From the NCBI GenBank assembly GCA_000701725.1, contig JNJQ01000018.1, positions 1 to 52,358 on the forward strand: 52,358 nucleotides of DNA, written 5' to 3'. The stretch's first letter is position 1, and each line of letters begins with the position of its first letter. The notes beneath the pieces are model-generated. The model had not been told where the DNA came from. It worked only from the letters and a program-made list of their open reading frames with translations, and made no database searches. The translations under genes were made by a program, and so were the position numbers. Of the stretch, positions 9,461 through 41,650 are shown piece after piece. The stretch is from Erysipelotrichaceae bacterium NK3D112 (GTDB lineage Bacteria > Bacillota_I > Bacilli_A > Erysipelotrichales > Erysipelotrichaceae).

Positions 9461-11389
9461 TTAATTCCATTCGATCACGATTTCAGCTGATTCATTCTTT
9501 ACTTCACAATCGATGAAGCAGAGATTGTCACAGATCTGAAGATCATCCGTGCGATCAATTCCATTAACTCTCAGTCTTGAGACTGAAGATCCGGTGCAGA
9601 AGCAGAACGGGCCTGATTCTTTCAGGACAATCCGGTCGTGATCATCGGATTCATCCCATTCTTTGACAGCGGTGAAACCTGCATATAGATCGCTTCTGCC
9701 GATCACAGCCATATGTCTGCCTTGCGGCGCAAGAACATACCATCCGTATTCTGTGGCATCAAGCGTGAGTGAACTGATATCCTGCTTTGTCAGGATTTTT
9801 CTGCTGAACCAGTCATAAACAACATAGTTCAGCGAGGAATCGAGCTCTTCGATTTCATCCGGACTGAAGCTGCACGGCAGTTTTGAATCCGTCAGGTTGA
9901 ACAGAAGGAATCCGCCGCTGACGCGATCAGCTGTCATTCCGTAATTGTGAAGCTTCAATACTGTGTGATCCAGAGGGTCTTCAAAGACACATGAATCAGA
10001 GGGTATCAATGATCTTTCCAGCGAAGGAATTTCTCCGTTCAGATAAGTCATCGGCCTGAAGATGGAAGTAACACTTTCATCCACGCGGTCGCTGAAATAT
10101 ACCGGTCCGCCGGAAAGGGCACGGATCAGGCTGTGCTTGACGGCATCGGCTTCCTTTGTCCAGAACATATCCCAGTCACAGGTGTACAGAATGTTGTGAT
10201 AAAGGGAATTCCATGCGTTCTGCAGAAGATGTTCCCTGAAACCGTCCATGCCTTTGGCAGGCACAAAGTCATCTGAATTGCGGGAAATGCCGGTCAGTTT
10301 TCTGGCGGCGATGGATTCCATTGCCATACCCATGCAGTTGATCACATTGCAATCAAACAGCTGCGATGCGGTTTCAATATCATGGGCGATTCCTTCCGCA
10401 GCCTTTGGTGCAGGCATATAGTTGCGGAAGAAGTTGGCAACAGTACTCTGTCCGTCAACCTTGACGAAGCTGATTCCGTCCTTTTTCAGATATTCATACC
10501 AGTTCATGTAGAACGGTGTGCCCTTGACCGGATCGGGATAGATATTGCCGTCTTCTGTGAAATGCAAAGCCTCATCGCAGTCCAGGCTGTTTTCAGATGC
10601 GATTCCTTCCCAGAAACCGCATACCGCATGCCAGACACCGAACCATTCGATTTCAGACATTTTGCGGATTTTTTCAGTCATCGGAAGGAATCCGTGAGGG
10701 AATTTGACGCGGTCCGGTTCATACGCTTTCAGTTTCATTCCTTCGGTGCTGAGCCAGCCGTCATCAATCAGCATCCATCTCGCCGGAATCTTCTTTGCGG
10801 AAAGTTCTTCCGCCTTGGCAATCAGGCCTTCCTCATTCACATCACGGTAGAATGCGTCCCAGCTGCACCAGCCGAGATATTTCAGCATTTCCGGAACAGG
10901 TCTTTCCGTGCGCAGAGGCAGATTCATAAACTCTGCCATTGTGCACATGGCTTTTCCGGCTGCCCTGCGGGCGCTGATATCATGTGACATCACGAATAAG
11001 GGCTGATCGCATTCTTCATGAATATCTGTATTTGAGAATACCCGGAGTCCGAAAGAAGTATCTGTACCGGCTGCCAGCTGTGTTTTGAAATTCTGATAAG
11101 CAAGCGGAAGGATGCAGAAACATTCCTTCTCACTCTGGATCAGAAGCACCTGGGTGCGCTTTGGGATGTCCTGGAATGACCGGATGAAGGCAGGTCTTGT
11201 CCACCAGTCATTGAGCATATACAAAGCCGTCATCTTCACAGGCTTCAGATCTGTTTCAGTCAGAATCTCATACGGCTCTTTCTGATCCGCAGAGGTTTCA
11301 CCCTTATGCATGAATACAATGGTGCTTTCTCCGTATTCACTGCATCTGAATGTGCAGTTTTCAATATTCACCGGTTTGAAGTCAAACAT
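9461..11389 (-). CDS. Sip1/raffinose-synthase-type GH36 alpha-galactosidase
   Basis: A 642-residue enzyme of the raffinose synthase/Sip1 branch of GH36. Diagnostic pieces are YLGWCSWDAFYRDV, WMLIDDGW, and GISFVKVDGQS, whose Asp is the expected nucleophile. ISRNSDDF has the expected acid/base Asp pair. Plant relatives make raffinose-family sugars, but bacterial relatives in sugar operons are taken to be alpha-galactosidases; the activity here is inferred. ATG 11389 is preferred over GTG 11395 because AGGAAGG overlaps the latter and is well spaced for the former. It lies 2 bases after galE, so translation is probably coupled. No signal peptide is seen; cytoplasmic. Confidence 0.85.
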   Translation of the reverse strand: MFDFKPVNIENCTFRCSEYGESTIVFMHKGETSADQKEPYEILTETDLKPVKMTALYMLNDWWTRPAFIRSFQDIPKRTQVLLIQSEKECFCILPLAYQNFKTQLAAGTDTSFGLRVFSNTDIHEECDQPLFVMSHDISARRAAGKAMCTMAEFMNLPLRTERPVPEMLKYLGWCSWDAFYRDVNEEGLIAKAEELSAKKIPARWMLIDDGWLSTEGMKLKAYEPDRVKFPHGFLPMTEKIRKMSEIEWFGVWHAVCGFWEGIASENSLDCDEALHFTEDGNIYPDPVKGTPFYMNWYEYLKKDGISFVKVDGQSTVANFFRNYMPAPKAAEGIAHDIETASQLFDCNVINCMGMAMESIAARKLTGISRNSDDFVPAKGMDGFREHLLQNAWNSLYHNILYTCDWDMFWTKEADAVKHSLIRALSGGPVYFSDRVDESVTSIFRPMTYLNGEIPSLERSLIPSDSCVFEDPLDHTVLKLHNYGMTADRVSGGFLLFNLTDSKLPCSFSPDEIEELDSSLNYVVYDWFSRKILTKQDISSLTLDATEYGWYVLAPQGRHMAVIGRSDLYAGFTAVKEWDESDDHDRIVLKESGPFCFCTGSSVSRLRVNGIDRTDDLQICDNLCFIDCEVKNESAEIVIEWN

Positions 11390-11391
11390 AT

Positions 11392-12414
11392 TCACCTTCC
11401 TGCATCATATCCGTCCGGATTCTGACTCTGCCATCTCCAGGCATCGCGGCACATGTCCTCAAGATTCTTTTCAGCCTTCCAGCCAAGCACATCATATGCC
11501 TTGGAAGGATCGGAATAACATGTGGCGATATCGCCGGGACGTCTTGGATCGATGACATAGGGAATCTCTTTTCCGCATGCCTGAGAGAAAGCCTTGATGA
11601 TATCAAGCACGGAATAGCCTGTGCCTGTGCCGAGGTTGAAGATATTCACACCGTCGAGCTTTTCCATTCCTTCAATTGCCTTGACATGTCCCTTGGCCAG
11701 ATCCACGACGTGGATGTAGTCTCTGACACCTGTTCCGTCCCGTGTGTCATAGTCATTGCCGAAGACATGGACCATTTCAAGCTTTCCGCCGGCAACCTTT
11801 GCCACATAGGGAAGCAGGTTGTTGGGAATGCCCTTGGGGTCTTCACCGATTAATCCGCTCTCATGCGCACCGATGGGATTGAAATATCTGAGCAACATGA
11901 CTTTCCACTCATTGTCCGATTTCCAAAGGTCCGTCAGGATTCTTTCCTGCATGGATTTGGTTTCGCCATAAGGGTTGGTAGTAATTCCCTTGGGACATTC
12001 CTCTGTGATCGGAATGAAGGCGGGATCGCCATAGACAGTCGCGGAGGATGAGAAGACGATCTTCTTACAGCCATGGTTTCTCATGACATCGGTGAGAACC
12101 AGAGTGGAAACCAGGTTGTTGTAATAATATTCAATCGGCTTGCGGGTGGATTCACCGACTGCCTTGTATCCGGCAAAGTGAATCACGGCATCAATGCTTT
12201 CCTTATCAAACAGATCGTTCAAAGCCTCTCTGTCACAGACATCGATCTCATAGAACTTCGGGCGTTTTCCCGCGATTTTCTCAATGCGGTCAATGACCAG
12301 GGCTTTGGAATTATAAAGGTTGTCGGCGACGATGACGTCATAGCCGCTTTCAATCAGTTCAACACATGTATGGCTGCCGATGAAGCCGGCACCGCCTGTC
12401 ACAAGAACACTCAT
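11392..12414 (-). CDS. galE: UDP-glucose 4-epimerase
   Basis: A 340-residue SDR-type epimerase. The NAD-binding motif is VTGGAGFIGSH at the N-terminus, FSSSATVYG holds the catalytic Ser, and YGETKSMQE holds the Tyr-x3-Lys pair. RYFNPIGAHESG and the C-terminal RRPGDIATCYSD are typical GalE. It interconverts UDP-galactose and UDP-glucose, closing the Leloir pathway together with the adjacent galT and galK. It lies 13 bases after galT with AAGAGGTAAGAG as ribosome site. Confidence 0.97.
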   Translation of the reverse strand: MSVLVTGGAGFIGSHTCVELIESGYDVIVADNLYNSKALVIDRIEKIAGKRPKFYEIDVCDREALNDLFDKESIDAVIHFAGYKAVGESTRKPIEYYYNNLVSTLVLTDVMRNHGCKKIVFSSSATVYGDPAFIPITEECPKGITTNPYGETKSMQERILTDLWKSDNEWKVMLLRYFNPIGAHESGLIGEDPKGIPNNLLPYVAKVAGGKLEMVHVFGNDYDTRDGTGVRDYIHVVDLAKGHVKAIEGMEKLDGVNIFNLGTGTGYSVLDIIKAFSQACGKEIPYVIDPRRPGDIATCYSDPSKAYDVLGWKAEKNLEDMCRDAWRWQSQNPDGYDAGR

Positions 12415-12427
12415 AATCTCTTACCTC

Positions 12428-13918
12428 TTATACTTTTTTCAGGAAGCGGATAAAACCGTCTCTTCCTTCCTGATTCCGTTTGTAGACACCTGCGTCTTCA
12501 AGAACCCGGGCAAACACTTTGCCTGTTTCAGTCTGCAGGATTTCATTCACATTCTCAGAAGTGACATCATAGGATGACGCGATCTTTTCCGCCCATTCAC
12601 GATGCTTTGCAATATCCGGCCCGTATTCATCAAAGGGAGTTTTCTGAACAAGCGCTTTTGCCAGTTCATCGAATTCCTTTTTCAGTCTTCCGGGCAGCAC
12701 GGCAAGTCCCATGACTTCGATCAGACCGATGTTTTCCTTTTTGATATGATGCAGATCGCTGTGCGGATGGAAAATGCCGAGGGGATGTTCCTCACTGGTG
12801 AGATTGTTTCGAAGCACAAGGTCCATCTCATAATCATTTCCTCGTCTGCGGCAGATCGGCGTGATGGTGTTGTGAGGCACATCATCAGTCATTGCATAGA
12901 TACCGCAGGTCTCATCGGTATGACTGCGCCATGCGCTTAGAATTTTTGCGGAAAGCTCCGCGATCTTTGCGGCGTCCGCACTTCTCAGACGGATCACACT
13001 CATCGGCCAGCGGACAATTCCCGCATGAACATCCTCATAACCTTCAAAGGTCCATTCCGTTTCAACCGGCGCCTTTGCCATGGCAAATGTGTATCCGCCG
13101 CCCTGATAATGTTCATGGCTGAGAATACTTCCTCCGACGATCGGAAGATCCGCGTTGGATCCGATGAAATAGTGGGGGAACTGCGTTACAAAATCGAGCA
13201 GGGTACGGAACGTTGCACCGGAGATGGTCATCGGCTGATGGTTTTCATGGAAGACAATGCAGTGCTCATTGTAATAAACATAAGGACTGTATTGCAGGAA
13301 CCAGTGTTCACCGTTGAGCTCAAGCGGAATGATTCTGTGATTTTCTCTGGCGGGATGATTGGTTCTTCCCGCATAGCCTTCATTCTCAGCGCACAGCTGA
13401 CATTTCGGATAACCGGACTGGACGGCGTTTTTCGCGGCTGCGATCGCTTTCGGGTCTTTTTCCGGCTTGGAAAGGTTGATGGAAATATCCAGGTCTCCGT
13501 ATTCCGTTGCGGTCTGCCAGCGGATATCTTTCGCAATTCTGTCAACACGGATGTAGTTCGTATCGCGGCTGAAACCGTAATACCATCGGGTTGCCTTCTG
13601 AGCGCCTTCGCTTTCGTAAATCCTGCTGAAACGATCACGGATTACGGAAGGCCAGGGGGTCAGGCAGCCCATCAGTTTTGTATCAAACAGATCACGGGAA
13701 ACAATATTATCTTCACAGATGCCCTTGCGCACCGCCTCATCCGTGAGGTTTTTGAGGATATCGCAAAGAGGCAGATCCTGATCCGTGAATGATTCCGTAT
13801 AGTCGTCCTGTTCCATCACGCTGAGCAGCTGATTGCGGACAAATACGATATCAGCAGACCGGATCAGCTGTTTTTCAATGCCATAGCGGACCAGCAATGC
13901 AATCATCTTATCAATCAT
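12428..13918 (-). CDS. galT: UDP-glucose--hexose-1-phosphate uridylyltransferase, class II (Bacillota type)
   Basis: A 496-residue protein, the length of the class II GalT of Bacillota rather than the roughly 350 residues of E. coli GalT. Characteristic segments are NHPARENHRIIPLELNG, LSHEHYQGG, and FHPHSDLHHIKKENIGLIEV followed by GLAVLPGRLK. It transfers UMP from UDP-glucose to galactose 1-phosphate. The gene starts 12 bases after galK, with AAAAGGAGAATTTC before the ATG. Confidence 0.95.
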   Translation of the reverse strand: MIDKMIALLVRYGIEKQLIRSADIVFVRNQLLSVMEQDDYTESFTDQDLPLCDILKNLTDEAVRKGICEDNIVSRDLFDTKLMGCLTPWPSVIRDRFSRIYESEGAQKATRWYYGFSRDTNYIRVDRIAKDIRWQTATEYGDLDISINLSKPEKDPKAIAAAKNAVQSGYPKCQLCAENEGYAGRTNHPARENHRIIPLELNGEHWFLQYSPYVYYNEHCIVFHENHQPMTISGATFRTLLDFVTQFPHYFIGSNADLPIVGGSILSHEHYQGGGYTFAMAKAPVETEWTFEGYEDVHAGIVRWPMSVIRLRSADAAKIAELSAKILSAWRSHTDETCGIYAMTDDVPHNTITPICRRRGNDYEMDLVLRNNLTSEEHPLGIFHPHSDLHHIKKENIGLIEVMGLAVLPGRLKKEFDELAKALVQKTPFDEYGPDIAKHREWAEKIASSYDVTSENVNEILQTETGKVFARVLEDAGVYKRNQEGRDGFIRFLKKV

Positions 13919-13930
13919 GAAATTCTCCTT

Positions 13931-15220
13931 TTACAGAACACGGATACCGCCGTAAGGACGGATTGCCATGATATGGCAGGAGCCTTTGCCGAGGACCGCT
14001 TCTGTTTTTTCAATCATTTCGGCTGTCATTTCCAGCGGCACATATGCCTGCACAGTGCCGGCGAAACCGCCGCCATGCACTCTGACCGCTCCTTTTCCGC
14101 CCAGGATCTGTCTGATCAGTGCAATCGTCAGCGCGACGGCCTGCTCTTTGATTTCACCCGCGGGAGTGATGTTCTGCAGATATTCCCAGCTGCTGTGGGC
14201 GGATTCATTCACAAGGTGCAGGAAGCGCTCATAATCGTGCTGTTCAAGGGCGTCGGCTTCTTCAGCCGCACGTCTGTTTTCATTGAAGAAATGAATGGCA
14301 CGAAGCAATGCGCGGCCTGAACAGGTCTTTCTCAATTCAGGAAGCTTATCCATGAAGAGATCTTCGGGGACTTCCCTGAGATATTCATAACCGCATGCTT
14401 TTGCGACACTGATGCATTCCGCCGGCACCGCTGCGTATTCATCCGTAAGATCCGCATGATCCGCACCGGAATCAACAATGACAAGTGCCAGACCGGCTTC
14501 TGCGGGATTCATTTCAATCTGCTTTACGGAAGGGTTCAGAGGATCTTTGAAATCCATACGGACCGCACCGCCGAAGGAGGATGCCATCTGATCCAGCAGA
14601 CCGCAGGGCTTGCCGAAATATTCGTTCTCTGTTTTCTGGCCGATCTTTGCGATTTCAATGGCGTCTGCTTTGTTCTCACCCATGAACAGTTCATTCATGA
14701 CAGTCGCAAGAAGGGTTTCGAATGCGGCGCTGGAAGAGATGCCGCTGCCTCCCGGCACATTGGATGAGATATAAAGATCAAGTCCGCAGAGTGATGCGCC
14801 TTTATCGCGGAATGCTCTGCAGATGCCGCGCAGGATGGAAATGCTTGTTCCGTATTCAGCCGGATTGATATCAAGATCATCCAGGCTGACACAGCAGGGC
14901 TCATAGCCTTCGCTCTTCAGGCGCATCTGCGAGCTCTGATTGGCTGAAACAGCCGCAATCATATCCATATTGACGGAAGCTGCGATGGCGATGCCATGCT
15001 GGTGATCGGTGTGGTTTCCGCCGATTTCCGTTCTGCCGGAGGCACTGAACAGGGCAGCTGTATCATGGTGTCCGTATTCAGACTCAAGACCGTCGAGTAC
15101 ATGGAGATATCTTTGCGCATGGTCTTCTGCCTTCTTTTTATCGCAGCAGTACAGGCGTGAGAGTTTACTCAGGGTTTCTCTTTCCGTGAGTGATGTTTTC
15201 AATTGATTGACCGGGATCAT
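13931..15220 (-). CDS. galK: Galactokinase
   Basis: A 429-residue GHMP kinase. The galactokinase signature GRTEIGGNHTDHQHG lies near residue 65, the ATP-binding PGGSGISSSAAFE near residue 155, and the C-terminal GHMP motif VRVHGGGFAGTVQAYVP near residue 380. It phosphorylates galactose released by the GH36 enzymes. Its ATG follows AAGGTATTAAAAA. It is first in the galK-galT-galE-GH36 run and lies only 33 bases downstream of an apparent intrinsic terminator, which suggests attenuation or partial read-through. Confidence 0.96.
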   Translation of the reverse strand: MIPVNQLKTSLTERETLSKLSRLYCCDKKKAEDHAQRYLHVLDGLESEYGHHDTAALFSASGRTEIGGNHTDHQHGIAIAASVNMDMIAAVSANQSSQMRLKSEGYEPCCVSLDDLDINPAEYGTSISILRGICRAFRDKGASLCGLDLYISSNVPGGSGISSSAAFETLLATVMNELFMGENKADAIEIAKIGQKTENEYFGKPCGLLDQMASSFGGAVRMDFKDPLNPSVKQIEMNPAEAGLALVIVDSGADHADLTDEYAAVPAECISVAKACGYEYLREVPEDLFMDKLPELRKTCSGRALLRAIHFFNENRRAAEEADALEQHDYERFLHLVNESAHSSWEYLQNITPAGEIKEQAVALTIALIRQILGGKGAVRVHGGGFAGTVQAYVPLEMTAEMIEKTEAVLGKGSCHIMAIRPYGGIRVL

Positions 15221-15253
15221 TTTTTAATACCTTCTTTCTGCTCGGAATTTCTG

Positions 15254-15319
15254 AAAAAAGCAGCACGGATGAACGTCCTCTCTTTTTGAAAAAGATTTTT
15301 GAGTGATCATCTGTGCTGC
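15254..15319 (-). terminator. Intrinsic terminator/attenuator ahead of galK
   Basis: On the minus strand GCAGCAC (15319-15313) pairs with GTGCTGC (15266-15260), extended by GATGA/TCATC across one A-C mismatch, and followed directly by TTTTTT (15259-15254). The loop is A/T-rich. The galK ATG begins at 15220, leaving little room for a separate promoter downstream of the hairpin. Confidence 0.7.
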
Positions 15320-15325
15320 ATCACA

Positions 15326-15362
15326 CCGTCATATCGCAGTGCACGTGAGGATATCCACGGTG
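15326..15362 (-). repeat. Second hairpin downstream of the transporter ATPase gene
   Basis: ACCGT-GGATATC pairs with GATATG-ACGGT across a small bulge, just after the ATPase stop codon and just before the galK attenuator. It may protect the 3' end of the upstream message. Confidence 0.4.
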
Positions 15363-15383
15363 TTTATTTGTTATGCGGCTGTA

Positions 15384-16580
15384 TTATGCCTCCAGGTTGA
15401 TACCTGTTTCCTTGGAGAACAGGTGGCAGACATTGCCGGGGAAGTCAAATTTGACATCCGCTCCGTGATTGAGAGAATCAAGCTCTTCGGTTGTCATGTT
15501 CAGGGTCGAAACGATCAGGATCACATCCTGTCCGAATGAATTCACATGCAGGTGAACGGAGGAACCCATCATTTCCGTTACATCGACTTTCGCATCGATT
15601 CCGCTTGCACTGAGACTGATATGTTCAGGACGGACACCGAGGGTAACGGGCTGCGCAGCGACATTTTTCGCGCTCAGGGCTGCCTGTTTGTCTTCTGAGA
15701 GCTCAACGGTGTAATCACCGAGTTTCACACTGTATCTGCCGTTGTTTTTCAGAAGCTCGGCATTTTCGAACAGATTCATCTGCGGTGTGCCGATGAAGGT
15801 TGCAACGAAGATATTGTAAGGATGATTGAATACTTCCTGAGGAGTGCCGATCTGCTGGATAAAGCCGTCTTTCATAATGACGATTCTGTCTCCGAGTGTC
15901 ATCGCTTCGGTCTGATCGTGAGTGACATAGATGAATGTGGTGTCAATTGTATTGCGAAGCTTGATGATCTCGGCACGCATCTGGTTGCGCAGTTTTGCGT
16001 CAAGGTTGGACAGAGGTTCATCCATTAACATGACCTGCGGTTCTCTGACAATGGCACGTCCGATCGCGACACGCTGTCTCTGACCGCCGGAAAGAGCTTT
16101 CGGCTTTCTGTCAAGATACTGCATGATATCGAGCACGGATGCGGCTTCACGGACCTTGATGTCAATTTCATCCTTCGGGATCCGGCGCAGTTTCAGCGCA
16201 AAGGCAAGGTTTTCATAGACAGTCATATGCGGATAGAGCGCATAGTTCTGGAAAACCATGGCGATATCTCTGTCTTTCGGCGCAACGTCATTGACCAGCT
16301 TGTCACCGATGTAAAGCTCGCCGCCTGAGATATCCTCAAGACCTGCGATCATTCTGAGTGTGGTGGATTTTCCGCAGCCGGAAGGACCGACCAATACGAT
16401 GAATTCCTTATCCGCAATATCAAGAGAGAATTCCTGGACTGCGACGACCCCCTCATCTGTGATCTGCAGATTCACCTGTTTCTTTTCAGGTTCATCGTCT
16501 TTTTTCTTCTTTGCTTTTTTCTGTTCGTCGCTGCTGAACGGATAGATCTTCTTGATATTCTTCAGTGTTAAAGATGCCAT
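15384..16580 (-). CDS. Sugar ABC transporter ATP-binding protein (MsmK/UgpC type)
   Basis: A 398-residue ABC ATPase. The Walker A is GPSGCGKST, the Q-loop MVFQNYALYPHMT, the signature LSGGQRQRVAIGRA, and the Walker B VMLMDEPLSNLD. A C-terminal regulatory (TOBE/MalK-like) domain covers about residues 260-398. It energises carbohydrate ABC importers and is often shared between several of them. An unusual Lys/Glu-rich insert (about residues 15-37, including KKAKKKKDDEPEKK) splits the first strand from GVVAVQEF. The start at 16580 (MASLTLKNIKK) fits the family but lacks a clear ribosome site; the frame is open to 16670. Confidence 0.92.
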   Translation of the reverse strand: MASLTLKNIKKIYPFSSDEQKKAKKKKDDEPEKKQVNLQITDEGVVAVQEFSLDIADKEFIVLVGPSGCGKSTTLRMIAGLEDISGGELYIGDKLVNDVAPKDRDIAMVFQNYALYPHMTVYENLAFALKLRRIPKDEIDIKVREAASVLDIMQYLDRKPKALSGGQRQRVAIGRAIVREPQVMLMDEPLSNLDAKLRNQMRAEIIKLRNTIDTTFIYVTHDQTEAMTLGDRIVIMKDGFIQQIGTPQEVFNHPYNIFVATFIGTPQMNLFENAELLKNNGRYSVKLGDYTVELSEDKQAALSAKNVAAQPVTLGVRPEHISLSASGIDAKVDVTEMMGSSVHLHVNSFGQDVILIVSTLNMTTEELDSLNHGADVKFDFPGNVCHLFSKETGINLEA

Positions 16581-16594
16581 TATGTTCTGACTCT

Positions 16595-16694
16595 GTGCAT
16601 GCTGAATCCTCAATCCATGCACTCGCGCGGTCCCGGGCAAAACGTTACCGGCATTACGGCAGGTCTCCACACTGCCGCACCGTGAGCCGACGGT
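16595..16694 (-). other. Highly structured leader of the ABC ATPase gene
   Basis: Three hairpins lie in 100 bases between the alpha-galactosidase stop and the ATPase start: ACCGT/ACGGT (16694-16690 with 16683-16679), CGGCAG/CTGCCG (16677-16672 with 16662-16657), and GTGCATG/CATGCAC (16622-16616 with 16601-16595). The last ends 15 bases before the ATG. A good AAAGGAGATA ribosome-site-like motif occurs at about 16704-16695 with no start codon at the right distance. None of the hairpins has a terminator T-run. Confidence 0.5.
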
Positions 16695-16745
16695 TATCTC
16701 CTTTCTGATCGGTTTATGAAATACGTGGAGAACTTTTCGTTATTT

Positions 16746-18980
16746 TTATTTCTGGTCAACTTTTTCCAGATGAATCTGGAAGGCTTCGTACAGGGATGCG
16801 CCGCGCACCCAGTCATGACCGGACATTTTGACTCTCGGAATCGTGATACCTGTTGTCATCAGCACATTGGCAGGGTAGATAATGCCGGTCTCAGTATCAC
16901 GGTAGGACGCATTGCGGTCCAGTCCGTCCAGACGGATATAACGTTCCGGTCTGTTTCCTGTGACATCGAGCACGACGATATTGAGAAGCGCCTCACTCTG
17001 ATCTTCCGAGACCATCATCCAGGCGGCTTCCTTTGTGTTTTTCATGACATCGGTGAGCCGGTAATACAGTCCGTTGTGCAGAAGGCTGCTGTATTTTCTG
17101 AATGTGATGATCTGCTGTCTGACTTCTTCCTTTTCCTCATCTGAAAGATGATTCAGATCGAGTTCATAGCCGAAGGTGCCTTCCATGGCAACGACTGCTC
17201 TGGTATTGATCGGTGTGCTGCGCCATGTGTCATAGTTGGGACATGCGGATACATGGGCGCCCATGGTGCGGATGGGATAGCCGAAGCTTGTTCCGTACTG
17301 GATTCTGATTCTGTCAATCGCGTCGGTATTGTCGCTGCACCAGATCTGCGGGGTGTAATACATCATGCCGGCATCGAATCTGCCGCCGCCTGAACTGCAT
17401 CCTTCCAGAAGCAGATCCGGATAGCGTTCGAGCAGTTTTTCCATGAAGCGGTATACACCGAGAACATATTTATACTGAAGCTTTCCTCTGCTCTGTGTTG
17501 AACTGCCATGGGAGTACACATCAACCAGAGGTCTGTTCATATCCATCTTGACGTAGTCGGCTTTGCATTCATCAAGAACCTTGCAGATATCATCGAGAAT
17601 GCGGTCAACGACTTCTTCTCTTGAGAAGTCCAGAACCAATTGGCTTCTGCCAAGCACCGGATCGCGTCCGGGGATCTGCAGAGCCCAGTCGGGATGTTCA
17701 CGGTACAGGTCACTGTCTTCATTGACCATCTCCGGTTCAATCCAGATGCCGAATTTCATGCCCAGGGAACGGATCTGATCAGCCAGTTCGCCCATGGTGC
17801 ATCCGAGTTTTTTCGTATTGACATACCAGTCGCCAAGACCTGAATAGTCATCGTCTCTCTTGCCGAACCAGCCGTCATCCAATACCATCATGTCAACACC
17901 GAGCTCGGCGGCTTTCTTTGCGATGGAAATAATCATTTCGCCATCGAAATAAGGACCGGTCGCTTCCCAGTTGTTGATGAGAACGGGACGGGGGCGGTTT
18001 TTCCAGGGACCTCTGCACACATGATCAGCGATCAGTCTGTGATAGATCCGGCTCAGGCTGCCAAGACCGTTTTCACTGTAAGCCAGGGCGATTTCCGGCG
18101 CCTGGAAGATTTCTTCCGGCTCCAGAGGATAATCGAAGTGTTCCGGCTGAATGCCCATGACCGCTCTGACACTGCCGAAGGCATCTGCGCCGGCATTGCA
18201 GCTGAAGGATCCGCTGTAAAGCAGATTCATGCCATAGCACTGGCCGTAACGCTCATCCGCATTTCTTTCGGCGATGATGACAAATGAATTCTGGTGATGG
18301 CTGCTGACACCGCGGCGGGTGCCGACCAGCTCTTCACGCTGGGATAAAGATACTCTTTCAAATGTTCTTTCTCCTGCATGGCGTCCGCTGAAATGAATCA
18401 GATCCCATTCGCCGGAAAGAATATCGAGAGATGCGCTTGCGGCATTTTTCACGATGATTTTCTGAGCGGTGCGGTTCTCAATGCGGGCTGCTCTTGTGAT
18501 CACATCCAGTTCAGGGAACACACCGTATTGCAAGGTGACAAAGATATCAGAGAATCTGTCTTTCAGTGTGACTTCAAGCGTCTGCGCCTCTTCATCCGTT
18601 CCATATACGGCAGGAAGACCTTCCAGGGAGTATTTTCCCTGCAGGATGCGGTGGCTGTGATAACGCATGTCAGCCATGAATGTTCCGTCATCTGCAGTAA
18701 TGCTCAGGGCAGGTGCGCGGAAATCACCGGCAGCTTCACATGGATATTCCAGCGGAATGGTATCGGCGGATACATCTCTGCATCTGCCGGCATCATGCGG
18801 GTTGGGGGAGAATCCGTGGTCGCGGTAAACGATACTGACAGACGCATCGCCGCTGATTTTCGGACCGTAGTATGTGTGAAGGAGGAATCCGTAAGGACCG
18901 ATCTTCATTTGGTAGCTGGTGTTCTCTGTGTTGAGGGTGATTGTTGAATTCTGTTCATTGTAGATAACTGACATAGTCAT
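16746..18980 (-). CDS. Alpha-galactosidase, GH36
   Basis: A 744-residue enzyme of normal GH36 length, with an N-terminal beta-sandwich (about 1-320), a TIM barrel (about 330-640) and a C-terminal beta domain. VLINNWEATGPYFDG, MVLDDGWFGKRDDD and GIWIEPEMVNEDSDLY are barrel motifs. Asp480 in DYVKMDMNRP is the nucleophile, and Asp550 in WCSDNTDA the acid/base. It cleaves alpha-1,6-linked galactose from melibiose, raffinose and similar sugars. No signal peptide, so it works on imported oligosaccharides. Its start overlaps the stop of the YesL-like gene (TAATG), and the transporter genes lie directly upstream. Confidence 0.95.
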   Translation of the reverse strand: MTMSVIYNEQNSTITLNTENTSYQMKIGPYGFLLHTYYGPKISGDASVSIVYRDHGFSPNPHDAGRCRDVSADTIPLEYPCEAAGDFRAPALSITADDGTFMADMRYHSHRILQGKYSLEGLPAVYGTDEEAQTLEVTLKDRFSDIFVTLQYGVFPELDVITRAARIENRTAQKIIVKNAASASLDILSGEWDLIHFSGRHAGERTFERVSLSQREELVGTRRGVSSHHQNSFVIIAERNADERYGQCYGMNLLYSGSFSCNAGADAFGSVRAVMGIQPEHFDYPLEPEEIFQAPEIALAYSENGLGSLSRIYHRLIADHVCRGPWKNRPRPVLINNWEATGPYFDGEMIISIAKKAAELGVDMMVLDDGWFGKRDDDYSGLGDWYVNTKKLGCTMGELADQIRSLGMKFGIWIEPEMVNEDSDLYREHPDWALQIPGRDPVLGRSQLVLDFSREEVVDRILDDICKVLDECKADYVKMDMNRPLVDVYSHGSSTQSRGKLQYKYVLGVYRFMEKLLERYPDLLLEGCSSGGGRFDAGMMYYTPQIWCSDNTDAIDRIRIQYGTSFGYPIRTMGAHVSACPNYDTWRSTPINTRAVVAMEGTFGYELDLNHLSDEEKEEVRQQIITFRKYSSLLHNGLYYRLTDVMKNTKEAAWMMVSEDQSEALLNIVVLDVTGNRPERYIRLDGLDRNASYRDTETGIIYPANVLMTTGITIPRVKMSGHDWVRGASLYEAFQIHLEKVDQK

Positions 18981-19768
18981 TAACCTGCTTTTCTGTTTTT
19001 AAGGAGCTGTGCCGACCGTTCGGAAAGAACCTTTTCGATCTCGAAGATTTCATCGATCTTCGGATAGATCAACTGGAAACAGCACAGAAGAGGAAGCCAG
19101 AGTCCTGCTGTGATCATCAGAAATACGGAACCCGGAAACAGCGCTGCTGCGATAATCAGATAGACGATCATGACAGCTGAAGCAGCCAGCGAGTTTTTCA
19201 GGAAGCGGAAGAACAGCAGAACACTGTTTTTAAGAAGGGCGGAAGTTTTCAGCTCGATCAGGGAGTGCTGCGCAAGCGCCCATAAGAAGATTCCGATGGA
19301 AACGCACATGCTGATGAGCTGGCAGATGATCAGCCATCCGCCGCCTTCAAGCACCGGCAGGTGCATGAGTACAAATAACTGCAGGGAGAAGATGAATCCG
19401 AAGATGCATCCCGGAAGGAGCGTTTTGATCCAGTTGGTTTTCACGGCACGGCTGTAGCGGTGCCACCAATATCCCGGCTCATCCCGAAGACTTCTGAGAA
19501 GAGTATCCGAGAGACCGTAGAAACAGGGTGCTGCGATCATACCGCCGACGATTCCGCCGATCATTGCGATCAGCAGACTGTGTGTCACATATGCCCAGCC
19601 GATCAGGAACAGAAACGGTATCAATGACAGGAAATTCAGTATGCCCGCCCGCCAGAAAGCAGTGTAATCTCTTGAGATCATCTCCCAAATTCTCGGTAAG
19701 CCCGTCGCCCGCGGCGCGTCTTCCGGAATACCGGGACCGGGTGTGCTGTAATTTGAGAAAAATAACAT
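18980..19768 (-). CDS. YesL-like (DUF624) membrane protein
   Basis: A 262-residue protein with about six hydrophobic segments. The first half has YTAFWRAGILNFLSLIPFLF and ends in a DTLLRSLRDEPGYWWHRYSRA motif typical of the YesL/DUF624 family, which is found next to LplABC-type sugar ABC transporters. Its molecular role is not known; an accessory role in the transporter is inferred from context. The ribosome site is CAGGAGGAATT. A very stable hairpin (19811-19842) separates it from the permease gene upstream. Its last base overlaps the alpha-galactosidase start. Confidence 0.75.
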   Translation of the reverse strand: MLFFSNYSTPGPGIPEDAPRATGLPRIWEMISRDYTAFWRAGILNFLSLIPFLFLIGWAYVTHSLLIAMIGGIVGGMIAAPCFYGLSDTLLRSLRDEPGYWWHRYSRAVKTNWIKTLLPGCIFGFIFSLQLFVLMHLPVLEGGGWLIICQLISMCVSIGIFLWALAQHSLIELKTSALLKNSVLLFFRFLKNSLAASAVMIVYLIIAAALFPGSVFLMITAGLWLPLLCCFQLIYPKIDEIFEIEKVLSERSAQLLKNRKAG

Positions 19769-19810
19769 AATTCCTCCTGCAGTGAGATTTCACAGTTCAA
19801 TTTGATATGG

Positions 19811-19842
19811 TTCCCCTCCCTCCGTTACCGGAGGGAAGGGAA
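19811..19842 (-). repeat. Very stable intercistronic hairpin after the permease gene
   Basis: Arms 19811-19824 and 19829-19842 pair at 13 of 14 positions around a four-base loop, mostly G-C. No T-run follows on the minus strand, so it looks like an mRNA-stabilising or processing hairpin within the operon rather than an intrinsic terminator. Confidence 0.7.
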
Positions 19843-19852
19843 TCATTATGAA

Positions 19853-20734
19853 TCAGCCTTTGACACTTCCCAGGGTAAGACCCTTTGTGAAGTAACGCTG
19901 AAGGAAGGGATAAACCATCATGATCGGCAGTGCGCCAAGGAACAGCTGGGCGGCACGTCCGGTGCGGGCATTCATCTTGGAAAGGATTTCCTGGATGTTG
20001 CCTGATGTGTCAGACTGCAGAAGCTTTTCAAAGTCGACAAGCAGTGTCTGCAGATAAGTCTGAAGCGGATAGTTCATCGGTTCACTCATGTAAATCATTC
20101 CGGAGAACCAGTCATTCCAGTGGCCGACCATACTGAACAGGCCGACTGTCGCAAGGCTTGGTCCAAGCAGCGGGAAGATGACATGCACGAGTGTGCCGAA
20201 CGGGGATGCACCGTCAATCCAGGCCGCTTCCTCAAGTTCATGAGGAAGTCCGCGGATGAAGTTCATCAGGATAATCATGTTGTATACAGGCAGCGCACCC
20301 GGAAGGATGAGAGCCCAGATGGTGTCTTTCAGGCCAAGACCTGAAACGAGCAGGTAAGTCGGGATCATACCGCCGCCGATGAGCATCGTTACGACGAAGA
20401 ATCCGGAGAGGAATCCGCGTCCGGGCAGATCACTCTTGGCCAGCGGATATGCAGTCAGCACCATGAGTACGATATTGAGCAGTGTTCCGAGAATGACTCT
20501 TTCAATGGAGATTCCCATCGCATGCAGGAAACGTCCTCCGGTGATGACATATTCATAGGATACCGTTGTGAATTCCACCGGCAGGAAGCCGACTTTGCCG
20601 GCTGCCACTGCCGAGCTGCTTGAGAAGGAAACCGCAAGCAGATGAACAAACGGAAGTACGCAGGTGATGCAGATAATACCGAGACCGATGGTCAGACAGA
20701 TATTGAATACGGAGATTTTATTCTTCTTTTTCAT
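19853..20734 (-). CDS. Carbohydrate ABC transporter permease (LplC/YtcP type)
   Basis: A 293-residue permease with six predicted membrane segments. The cytoplasmic EAA loop, which docks on the ATPase, is EEAAWIDGASPFGTLVHVIF. ILPGALPVYNMIILMNFIRGLP just before it is typical of LplC-like permeases. The start at 20734 follows TGGAGGATGAT; ATG 20746 would give a TAATG overlap with the upstream permease but lacks a ribosome site. It forms the membrane channel together with the partner permease. Confidence 0.93.
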   Translation of the reverse strand: MKKKNKISVFNICLTIGLGIICITCVLPFVHLLAVSFSSSSAVAAGKVGFLPVEFTTVSYEYVITGGRFLHAMGISIERVILGTLLNIVLMVLTAYPLAKSDLPGRGFLSGFFVVTMLIGGGMIPTYLLVSGLGLKDTIWALILPGALPVYNMIILMNFIRGLPHELEEAAWIDGASPFGTLVHVIFPLLGPSLATVGLFSMVGHWNDWFSGMIYMSEPMNYPLQTYLQTLLVDFEKLLQSDTSGNIQEILSKMNARTGRAAQLFLGALPIMMVYPFLQRYFTKGLTLGSVKG

Positions 20735-20745
20735 ATCATCCTCCA

Positions 20746-21651
20746 TTACAGAATTCTGTAGCCTGCCAGCTTGTCAGCCAGACGGTAGGAAGTGACAACC
20801 ATGATCGCGGAAACAAGTGATTTGAACAGACCGACAGCAGCACCGACGGAATACTGGGCCTGCTGGATACCGAGACGGTATACATAGGTGTCGATGATAT
20901 CGCCCGTTTCCCATACAGCCGGGCTGTACAGGTTATAGACCTGATCGAATCCGGCGTTGAGTACGCTTCCCAAAGAGAGGACAGTCATCAGGATGATTGT
21001 CGGCATCAGCAGCGGGATGGTGATGTTTTTGATCTGCTGCCAGCGGGTGGCGCCATCCAGCATCGCTGATTCGTAGAGACTCGGATCAATACCAAGCAGG
21101 GCTGCCAGGTAAACGATTGTGCCGTAGCCGAAGCCTTTCCAGACATCAGATACAATCATTGTCCAGGGGAACACTTTCGCATCGCCAAGGAAGTTGACTG
21201 TTCCCATGCCGAGTTTTGCGAGAATGGTATTGATCGCTCCGGTGCTGCTGAGGATATCCATGAGAACGCCGGCCATGATAATCCATGACAGGAAGTTCGG
21301 GATGTAAATCAATGTCTGATAGAAACGCTTCAGTTTTTCTGAACGCATTTCGTTCAGAAGAACCGCGATGGTCACCGGAACAATGATTCCGAGTGCCAGT
21401 TTCCAGACAGAGATGAAGAGTGTGTTCCAGATTGTGCGGGTGAATGTCGGCTGGCTGAACAGATAACGGAAGTTTTCAAGTCCGACCCAGGGGGAATTGA
21501 ATCCCATGCCGACATTGTATTTTTCAAACGCGATGATGACACCGTACAGCGGTATATAGCTGAAGATGAAGGTCAGTACAACACCGGGAATGAGCATGGC
21601 GTAATACTGCCAGAGAGTGCTGATGTTGAATTTCTTTTTCTTACCTTTCAT
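20746..21651 (-). CDS. Carbohydrate ABC transporter permease (LplB type)
   Basis: A 301-residue permease with six membrane segments. The N-terminal MLIPGVVLTFIFSYIPLYGV and IAFEKYNVGMGFNSPWVGLENF are typical of LplB-like proteins. The EAA loop is ESAMLDGATRWQQIKNITIP. It pairs with the downstream permease gene. The stop codon TAA overlaps a possible ATG of the next gene. Together with the solute-binding protein, this is the LplABC-like importer class for oligosaccharides. Confidence 0.93.
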   Translation of the reverse strand: MKGKKKKFNISTLWQYYAMLIPGVVLTFIFSYIPLYGVIIAFEKYNVGMGFNSPWVGLENFRYLFSQPTFTRTIWNTLFISVWKLALGIIVPVTIAVLLNEMRSEKLKRFYQTLIYIPNFLSWIIMAGVLMDILSSTGAINTILAKLGMGTVNFLGDAKVFPWTMIVSDVWKGFGYGTIVYLAALLGIDPSLYESAMLDGATRWQQIKNITIPLLMPTIILMTVLSLGSVLNAGFDQVYNLYSPAVWETGDIIDTYVYRLGIQQAQYSVGAAVGLFKSLVSAIMVVTSYRLADKLAGYRIL

Positions 21652-21676
21652 AAAACCAGACTCCTATGATAAGGGA

Positions 21677-23320
21677 TCAGCCGCCGTAGATTTCGTTGAC
21701 TTCCTGAGTAGCCTTTTCTCCGCCTGCTGTCTTCCACTGTTCAACAAGTTCGTCAAAGTAATCGATTGTTTTTTCGCCTGTGATGATCTTTGTGAAGCCT
21801 TCGATCAGAATGTCATTGAGAGTGCTGCCTGCAGACTGAAGAGTCGGTGTATCCGGTCCCCACTTGGCATCCTGCACATACTGTTTCTCATCGACATATT
21901 TCTTGGCGATTCCGTATGCGGAGCGATCATTGCCCTGCTGCAGCCAGTCGCCGACACCGTTGGGATCCTGTGATGTGAGCCAGTTGACGCAGCTTTCATA
22001 CTTGGCAACGTTTGTGCCCAGCTCGCTTGTGTCAACGTCTTCGCCTGCCTGATATGCGTCAACGGCAGCCTTGACCTGGATGTACTGGTTGTAGTCGTTC
22101 ATCGGGTTGATGATACGTGTTTCTCTGACGCAGTTCGGATAGTTGAAGCTGTGCAGGGAGGAGAGATATTCATTTGTTTCGACGCCGACTGCATCATTGA
22201 CTGTGTAAGCATAGAAGTTGACGATTTTCATGATCGCTTCCGGATTGACGCAGTCTTTTCTGATGACAACATAGCCTTCATTGGAGAACTTGACGCTGCC
22301 GAGGATGTCGCTGCCGTCCTGTGTCGGAATCTCATACGGATAGAAGATCGCTTCCGGTCCCTGGTTCTTGATCAGGTCGGGCAGAGGGTTATAACCGAAC
22401 CACTGTGCAAACGGGATGACACCGCATTCGCCGTTGATCATGCCCTGCATCATCTTGTCCCAGTTGAGTGTTGTGAAGTTCGGATTGATGATGCCGTCCT
22501 TATACCATTGTGCATACTGGGCAAGAGCTTCTTTCATTTCCGGCTGAATCATTCCGTATTCAATTGTGCCGTCATCCTTTGTTACCCAGATATCAGGATG
22601 TGCGCCCCAGCTGAGTGCGAGTCTGAAGAGGTTTTCGAGAGTCTGGCATTCAGGCAGTGCATATCCGCCGTATTTTTCAGCGAAGGTTGTGGCGATCTTG
22701 ATGACATCGTCCATTGTCTTGGGAGCTTCAAATCCGCATTCCTTCATCCAGTCCTGACGGATCCAGATGTACTGGAACTGGTCGATGATGCCGTAGCTCA
22801 TCTGCGGCATGCCGTAGAGTTCGCCGTCGAAGCATCCGGTTTCCCATGTTTCCGCATAATCCTTACGGTAGTTCTTAAGTACGTCGGAAGCGTATTTGTC
22901 AAACACTTCCTCGAGGTTCATGATCAGGCCTGCTTCATGCAGGGTGTTGAGACGGGCCGAATCGACATAGAAGACATCCGCGAGATCCTTGTCGGCGATG
23001 GCAAGATTCAGCTTTGTGTCATAGTCGTTGGAGACCCACTTGTTCTGAAGATTGATATTGAAGCGTTCCTTGTAAGCACGGTACCAGGGGTTGTTGCCAT
23101 AGTCGTCGTCGCCCTGGAATTCTGTTCCGCTGTTTTCCGGAACAAATGCTGTGACTGTGACTTCCTCGTCATAGGGTGCCCAGATATCTGCCGGCGGTTC
23201 AACTCTGGGTGTGGTGTCAGCGGTCGGTGTGCTGGGCTTGGACATGCATCCGGTCAGCGCGCTGAGAGCGATCAGCGAACTCAGTGATGCTTTGAATAAA
23301 CGAGAGATGTTTTTCTGCAT
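21677..23320 (-). CDS. Extracellular solute-binding lipoprotein of the sugar ABC importer (LplA type)
   Basis: A 547-residue protein with a type II signal peptide (MQKNISRLFKAS, hydrophobic core, lipobox ALTGC with Cys near residue 25). It is long, like the LplA-type binding proteins for oligosaccharides. It is held at the outer membrane face, where it captures substrate for the two permeases. Given the two GH36 enzymes and Leloir genes downstream, an alpha-galactoside such as raffinose, stachyose or melibiose is the probable ligand (inference). First gene of the minus-strand operon; ribosome site AGAAGGAGAAAGAAA. Confidence 0.92.
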   Translation of the reverse strand: MQKNISRLFKASLSSLIALSALTGCMSKPSTPTADTTPRVEPPADIWAPYDEEVTVTAFVPENSGTEFQGDDDYGNNPWYRAYKERFNINLQNKWVSNDYDTKLNLAIADKDLADVFYVDSARLNTLHEAGLIMNLEEVFDKYASDVLKNYRKDYAETWETGCFDGELYGMPQMSYGIIDQFQYIWIRQDWMKECGFEAPKTMDDVIKIATTFAEKYGGYALPECQTLENLFRLALSWGAHPDIWVTKDDGTIEYGMIQPEMKEALAQYAQWYKDGIINPNFTTLNWDKMMQGMINGECGVIPFAQWFGYNPLPDLIKNQGPEAIFYPYEIPTQDGSDILGSVKFSNEGYVVIRKDCVNPEAIMKIVNFYAYTVNDAVGVETNEYLSSLHSFNYPNCVRETRIINPMNDYNQYIQVKAAVDAYQAGEDVDTSELGTNVAKYESCVNWLTSQDPNGVGDWLQQGNDRSAYGIAKKYVDEKQYVQDAKWGPDTPTLQSAGSTLNDILIEGFTKIITGEKTIDYFDELVEQWKTAGGEKATQEVNEIYGG

Positions 23321-41301: not shown

Positions 41302-41448
41302 TTTTCATGCCTCCTTTGAATTCATTATAGATATGCGCTGACCGGCGGTCAACACATAATATTTTTAAGATGAAACTGACCGCGGATTGTATGCATGCCC
41401 GCAAAGTGTTTATTTCCGTTTTGAATGATTTGATATATACTGATTGAA

Positions 41449-41650
41449 ACCGGTGAGAAGGAATAGTAGCGCAGGCATCCGCTGCCATAAGAGAGGAACA
41501 GACAGGTGAAAGTGTTCCGCTGAAGGAACTGTGTGAATGCGCCTTTGAGGGTTTCCCCGACAAGTAGGGGAGAACGTGATGCCGCGTTAAGGCGAAGAGT
41601 GAAAAGAAAAGTGGAACCGCGCTGAGGCGCCTTTTTGGCAGGGCGTTTTT
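41449..41650 (+). promoter_or_regulatory. T-box riboswitch of cysS
   Basis: The leader carries the T-box core TGGAACCGCG (41612-41621), preceded by a stem III hairpin CCCC/GGGG (41555-41558 with 41567-41570) and a long stem I beginning near GAAGGAATAGTAG. A TGC at 41538-41540 (GTGAATGCGCC) is a good candidate for the Cys specifier codon. Terminator pairing around 41627-41650 ends in TTTTTT. Uncharged tRNA-Cys would stabilise the antiterminator and switch on cysS. A TATACT box (41436-41441) is the probable -10. Confidence 0.93.

Follow-up and report, generated by a model that had tools for sequence, protein, structure and literature searches.

The window, by which we mean the whole stretch of 52,358 nt of Erysipelotrichaceae bacterium NK3D112 that was analysed, contains a galactoside operon on its minus strand. 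The order on that strand is: solute-binding protein, two permeases, a 262-aa protein with a weak match to the MusI family (under the cut-off), GH36 alpha-galactosidase, malK-I RNA, ABC transporter ATPase, galactokinase-like protein, GalT, GalE and a raffinose-synthase-family protein. The RNA was found by a cmscan search of the whole window as a match to Rfam RF03069 (malK-I) at 16748–16575 (minus strand), with 94.6 bits and an E-value of 2.5e-16, the gathering cut-off being 60.3. The match is full length (model positions 1–181) and the type of the family in Rfam is cis-regulatory; the 5′ end of the model lies inside the stop codon of the upstream gene and its 3′ end on the AUGGCA of the ATPase. 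A T-box leader at 41444–41637 (plus strand, 100.3 bits) is the second of the two Rfam matches in the window. The genes and RNA elements referred to below are the following (SD: Shine-Dalgarno sequence; P1: the closing helix of the RNA).

21677–23320, minus strand: solute-binding protein (operon)
16746–18980, minus strand: GH36 alpha-galactosidase (melibiase), the upstream gene (PF02065, PF16875, PF16874)
15384–16580, minus strand: MalK/UgpC-type sugar ABC transporter ATPase, 398 aa (PF00005, PF17912 OB_MalK, PF08402 TOBE_2; NF008653 above cut-off)
9461–11395, minus strand: raffinose-synthase-family protein (operon)
16575–16748, minus strand: malK-I RNA, whole (Rfam RF03069)
16718–16752, minus strand: 5′ hairpin, weak, with AU-rich outer stem GAAAUA/UAUUUC (RNAfold); overlaps the stop codon of the upstream GH36 gene
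16725–16730, minus strand: CUCCAC, complementary to GUGGAG at 16670–16665 and, through its CUCC, to the GGAG of the SD
16698–16704, minus strand: SD, AAAGGAG (sequence; SD core in 203/203 relatives)
16679–16694, minus strand: hairpin A, ACCGU/ACGGU (5 bp; strands 16694–16690 and 16683–16679), loop CGGCUC (sequence and relatives)
16684–16688, minus strand: P1 5′ strand GGCUC, within the loop of hairpin A (alignment and covariation)
16657–16677, minus strand: hairpin B, CGGCAG/CUGCCG (6 bp; strands 16677–16672 and 16662–16657), loop UGUGGAGAC (sequence and strand combinations)
16625–16652, minus strand: hairpin C, variable (folds)
16595–16622, minus strand: hairpin D, GUGCAUG/CAUGCAC (7 bp; strands 16622–16616 and 16601–16595), apical GA(GGAU)UC (sequence and folds)
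16589–16593, minus strand: P1 3′ strand GAGUC, with the AUG 8 nt downstream (alignment and covariation)
16578–16580, minus strand: ATPase start codon AUG (AUGGCA, the final Rfam model positions; alignment)

The leader before the ABC ATPase is almost certainly a malK-I RNA. Since malK-I is an already known family, the window copy is a new member of it, and the span 16581–16704 singled out by the first-pass annotation becomes the SD-to-AUG part of a known cis-regulatory RNA. That annotation had proposed an RNA switch or a translation control element inside the operon, which the presence of a cis-regulatory RNA between the GH36 stop codon and the ABC ATPase supports. The three perfect stems of 5, 6 and 7 bp on which it drew are found on the minus strand as hairpins A, B and D. 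Its orphan ribosome site is the AAAGGAG at 16704–16698, which no start codon adjoins, and the ATPase ATG (16580–16578) indeed has no normal ribosome site, the four-base SD core being absent from positions −17 to −5. Two elements were absent from it: the 5′ element with CUCCAC (16730–16725) and the pseudoknot strand GAGTC (16593–16589). The family was reportedly first described by Weinberg and colleagues in 2017. A literature search, beyond whose reach that original description lay, found no study of malK-I function; in a software preprint, malK-I serves as a training family (PMC11507696).

Concerning the fit of the window copy to the family, the position directly 5′ of a MalK-type ATPase and the inclusion of both SD and AUGGCA within the model are common to RF03069 and the window copy. 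The conserved loop UGUGGAGAC and the 5′ CUCCAC are both present in the Rfam alignment of the window copy. In the same alignment many pairs of the 5′ hairpin stem are marked as non-standard; RNAfold gives the AU-rich alternative listed above and predicts the CUCCAC to be unpaired in an internal loop. The closing helix P1 comprises seven model positions, of which the window copy has five contiguous pairs, the outer two being a mismatch and a deletion. P1 is drawn in the structure line of Rfam, which shows no pairing for either strand of hairpin A or for the CUCCAC:GUGGAG match. The window copy differs from other RF03069 members in lying inside a galactoside operon, in its weak 5′ hairpin and in having 14 listed genus-mates without malK-I.

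The distribution of malK-I across bacterial lineages is uneven. The window's genome contains one copy; in its family malK-I is found in 16 of 195 genomes and 4 of 59 genera, and none of the 14 other genomes of the genus among those listed contains it. The RNA is more frequent in the family of one Christensenellaceae carrier (66/103 genomes) and in the family of another carrier (44/120, 43 of them above cut-off), and it is found in 20 of 295 genomes (19 above cut-off) of the order of Anaerotruncus sp. G3 and in 4 of 391 of its class. Searches over 40 genomes used stricter filters, by which weak matches are lost; under these filters, samples of the window's class and phylum (395 and 392 genomes) contained malK-I in the window's genome only. 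The patchy occurrence within the genus suggests that the RNA may have been acquired together with the operon. Two genomes (G1398 and G1436) contain three malK-I copies each.

The neighbouring genes were surveyed for ten proteins of five loci (L069, L046, L018, L014 and L076). In L069 and L046, both from Clostridia, the non-sugar neighbours of the ATPase are an amidase, a RadA-like protein (a label that is a reading of the domains), TauE and a phosphoribosyltransferase. In L076 (Solobacterium) the ATPase follows two permeases and a lacto-N-biose phosphorylase.

For the comparison of leaders, sequences were collected from a pattern scan (at least 120 loci), from 45 covariance-model loci and from the window, and 69 more loci were added later; the counts cover covariance-model matches listed with a locus. 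The first set contains 149 leaders (L139 and L162 unparsed, duplicates left out) and the final set 205 distinct leaders, with L140 (cut) and L162 left out and L206 unparsed (the element is present but the locus end is too near). Counts of the SD, of CUCC and of hairpin A refer to 203 leaders, as L008 and L067 are too short upstream, and the AUG was located in 199 of the 205. The pattern scan fixes loop B, and the loop-B parser requires 6 of 9 loop matches; statements on loop B are therefore limited to model-found loci. Some individual leaders are unusual. L162 (G1165:C29, 47 bits) looks, by eye, like a malK-I leader reduced to its 5′ half: the 5′ hairpin, the SD and hairpin A are followed by the first strand and loop of hairpin B and then, with no ATPase start, by possible coding sequence; either a rearrangement or an assembly join would explain this. 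Eight leaders of the window's family (L205, L207 and L209–L214) have a hairpin B of the type CAGCAU/AUGCUG with the loop CGUGGAGAC or AGUGGAGAC, and their Rfam scores (75–94 bits) are below those of most Clostridia copies. Among Clostridia leaders, L011, L022 and L095 have a compact GC hairpin just 5′ of the 5′ hairpin, perhaps the terminator of the preceding gene (by eye).

The folding energy of the single leader is unremarkable (z = −1.43; 13 of 200 shuffles fold equally well), and the case for structure beyond chance comes from the match to the Rfam covariance model and from covariation among relatives. An alignment of the leader across relatives, which the first-pass annotation had put forward as the way to check its stems, gives covariation in stems A and B and in the pseudoknot helix P1 (205 distinct leaders). 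Hairpin A is paired at four of four positions in 202 of 203 relatives, with 11 types of 3′ strand; when the 3′ strands are re-dealt among the leaders, the mean is 136.8 and the maximum 148 (500 deals). This high background is due to GCGG, the 3′ strand in 139 of the 203; among leaders with another 3′ strand, 64 of 64 are paired, against a permuted mean of 29.8 and a maximum of 40. P1, formed by the last five bases of loop A and a strand close before the AUG, is fully paired in 171 of 197 leaders, as compared with a mean of 51.3 and a maximum of 63 when the loops are re-dealt (300 deals). Restricting the comparison to 107 non-redundant leaders gives 90 paired against a permuted mean of 23.8 and a maximum of 36 (1000 deals). 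The register of the helix is specific in the same 107 leaders: sliding the strand by +1 to +3 leaves 3–6 paired, by −2 leaves 18 and by −3 leaves 13, while −1 still leaves 54, as expected if the helix extends. Among the 132 first-set leaders in which P1 is fully paired, 128 have 6–9 nt between the end of P1 and the AUG.

As the 5′ strand of P1 lies within the loop of hairpin A, A and P1 together form an H-type pseudoknot. Hairpin B is found in 19 strand combinations among 86 model-found leaders, and of the 107 non-redundant relatives 105 have two more hairpins (C and D) between B and P1, an arrangement seen in 48% of shuffles. The comparison of relatives thus demonstrates a conserved order of SD, pseudoknotted domain of about 100 nt (A, P1, B, C and D) and AUG.

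There is also a clear difference in the placement of the SD between leaders and related genes. An SD core is found upstream of the domain in 203 of 203 leaders (GGAGG in 189, AGGAG in 10, AAGGA in 3 and GAGG in 1), at a linear distance from the AUG of 100–184 nt (median 118; 197 leaders). At the AUG itself (−17 to −5), none of 199 leaders has a five-base core and 28 have a four-base core; of 18 leaders listed with a four-base core there, 12 owe it to a GGAG overlapping the P1 strand (by eye). The control consisted of 31 loci of malK homologues of the same family without the RNA, of which L190 has no start by our rule (n = 30); L198 was excluded because it carries a malK-I RNA. Among these homologues the five-base core is present at the start in 25 of 30 and the four-base core in 28 of 30, and GTGGAGA is absent from the 220 nt before the start in all 30. 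The two homologues lacking the four-base core include L197 (G000:C5:17500-21500), a paralogous MalK-type ATPase of the window's own genome, 68% identical and without malK-I RNA, which has AAAGGGG about 14 nt before its ATG. Softer controls, which use uncurated starts or the first ATG, give a four-base core at 28 of 38 ORFs of the window and at 246 of 452 ORFs in the relatives' loci. By this comparison of leaders and homologues, genes with malK-I lack the SD close to the AUG and have one beyond the domain instead.

This placement can be read as a split ribosome-binding site, and there is about an even chance that malK-I works in this way. The 30S subunit would bind the upstream SD, and formation of hairpin A and P1 would bring the AUG near enough to it in space; the folded state would be ON and the unfolded state would be without a usable SD. 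In the window, SD and AUG are separated by 117 nt of sequence; in the folded state 3 + 8 = 11 unpaired nucleotides plus the pseudoknot would be left; across 140 leaders this residual unpaired spacing is 10–22 nt (median 16) plus the width of the pseudoknot. A known precedent exists in phage T4: intervening structures shorten the SD–AUG spacing from 22 to 5 nt in gene 38 and from 27 to 11 nt in gene 25, and destabilising mutations lower initiation (PMC3014915). In the T4 split sites an RNA structure between SD and AUG cuts an over-long spacing; malK-I has the same layout, with no five-base SD at the AUG. The two cases differ in scale, the T4 spacings of 22 and 27 nt comparing with about 118 nt and a pseudoknotted multi-hairpin domain in malK-I, where the shortening is our reading of the sequences. 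Unlike the T4 genes 38 and 25, malK-I also spans several bacterial families, by record titles. In the Escherichia coli alpha-operon (S4) and rpsO (S15) a pseudoknot at the ribosome-binding site controls initiation; in those operators the SD is part of the pseudoknot or next to it, close to the start, whereas in malK-I it lies 5′ of the whole domain.

Several observations count against a split site. The residual spacing mostly exceeds the 5 and 11 nt reached in T4, the spacer between SD and hairpin A is loose (2–13 nt), and the SD-to-A and P1-to-AUG spacers barely compensate for each other (r = −0.14). Also, the SD is not unusually open by RNAfold without pseudoknots (mean unpaired 0.50 vs a leader baseline of 0.41 in 40 leaders), and in the RNAfold prediction for the window it is paired with the first codons.

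Concerning the 5′ region, CUCC is followed by AC, AU, GC or GU, which makes a six-pair match to GUGGAG, in 179 of 203 leaders, against 334 of 1076 CTCC in downstream coding sequence; the leader count favours CUCCA where several CUCC occur, while the coding-sequence control does not. CUCC followed by UU, which would instead extend the pairing with the SD, was found once, and CUCC is absent from 7 of the 203, a further point against the proposed mechanism. Where CUCCA is present, a hairpin loop contains all of it in 155 of 179 leaders. Its partner GUGGAG is invariant in parsed model-found leaders except L160; because loop B is invariant, the proposed CUCCAC:GUGGAG contact rests on complementarity and not on covariation. 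In most relatives the loops end in GGAG (loop B as GU-GGAG-AC in the Rfam line, loop D as GC-GGAG-GC in 118 of 198), so that such leaders, with GGAG in both B and D loops, contain three GGAG copies and one CUCC.

The 5′ CUCCAY element may be a switch. Pairing of CUCCAC with the GUGGAG of loop B would leave the SD free (ON), and its release would allow CUCC to cover the GGAG of the SD (OFF); a ligand or protein reading GUGGAGAC would set the balance. Joined with the split site this gives a more specific proposal, possible rather than probable, of an ON-when-folded switch: a sensor of about 100 nt between SD and start would assemble the ribosome site, and CUCCAC would choose between the GUGGAG loop (ON) and the SD (OFF).

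The same elements could act with the opposite sign, which we consider rather unlikely. The folded pseudoknot would block the 30S subunit at the position of the SD duplex, so that folding by the ligand would mean OFF, and CUCC would mask the upstream SD. It is consistent with this that P1 occupies the usual SD position, that the CUCC of the 5′ element could base-pair with the GGAG of the SD and that many known translational riboswitches are OFF switches. The unfolded AUG, however, would make a poor ON state with a five-base SD core in 0 of 199 leaders, and there would be no evident use for the SD that 203 of 203 leaders retain. It is still less likely that the SD is a ribosome standby site, or an mRNA-stabilising one (a type of SD site known as STAB-SD), which is never brought to the AUG, so that the ATPase starts without SD help. 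The loose spacing between SD and hairpin A fits this. A −10-like hexamer also occurs in the segment before the leader in 109 of 199 cases, compared with 33 of 199 for segments further upstream, so that a transcription start may lie near many copies; the window copy, however, is operon-internal. Such a site would also leave unexplained the conservation of P1 and A just 5′ of the AUG together with the SD, and the five-base core is missing at the AUG in 199 of 199 genes with the RNA and present in 25 of 30 without it.

Other functions for the SD or the hairpins are far less probable. The first-pass annotation had named a GTG near 16670 as a possible different true start, and the SD could serve this GTG as the start of an N-terminal extension, or a leader peptide GTG CGG CAG TGT GGA GAC CTG CCG TAA. 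In the window the reading frame runs open from the GTG at 16670 into the ATPase, and 112 of 149 relatives have a GTG on one side of hairpin B and a TAA on the other. Both readings are nevertheless very improbable, as judged from the relatives. Of 143 relatives, 56 have this GTG in the reading frame of the AUG and 42 have the frame open; in 37 of 149 the GTG or the TAA of the leader peptide has changed to other sequence, and 3–13 nt after the SD an ATG is found in 2 of 148 and any start codon in 25 of 148. Transcription attenuation, with the hairpins forming a terminator, has a similarly slight probability; there are stable hairpins and alternative pairing partners, but a consensus scan of window positions 12000–22000 gave no terminator-like site on the minus strand within 16570–16750. 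Least probable of all, and extremely so, is control of the CsrA type, in which the GGA motifs of the SD, loop B and loop D would be CsrA sites. GGA and ANGGA can be read as such sites by the CsrA motif, and loop D contains GGA in 160 of 198 leaders and the SD region ANGGA in 197 of 205; the CsrA domain PF02599, on the other side, is found in 5 of 32 carrier genomes and is absent from the window's own.

Two further candidates were rejected. Translational coupling to the upstream gene would have to bridge the 165 nt between the GH36 stop codon and the AUG, and in 54 of 205 relatives (7 more are too short) no open frame of at least 70 codons ends within 200 nt before the SD. The GGAG of loop D was also discarded as the real SD: many relatives have other bases there, the window itself having GGAU, and the position is in the loop of a hairpin.

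For the organism, a split ribosome-binding site in malK-I would have the consequence that the output of the ATPase is set apart from that of the remaining galactoside operon. The comparison of relatives reduces malK-I to one simple claim, namely that the SD on the ‘wrong’ side of the domain is the real one and would be used only on folding. If true, malK-I would be a natural case of an RNA sensor that assembles a ribosome-binding site instead of hiding it, and it would provide one control point for sugar import, via the ATPase, in gut Clostridia and Erysipelotrichaceae.
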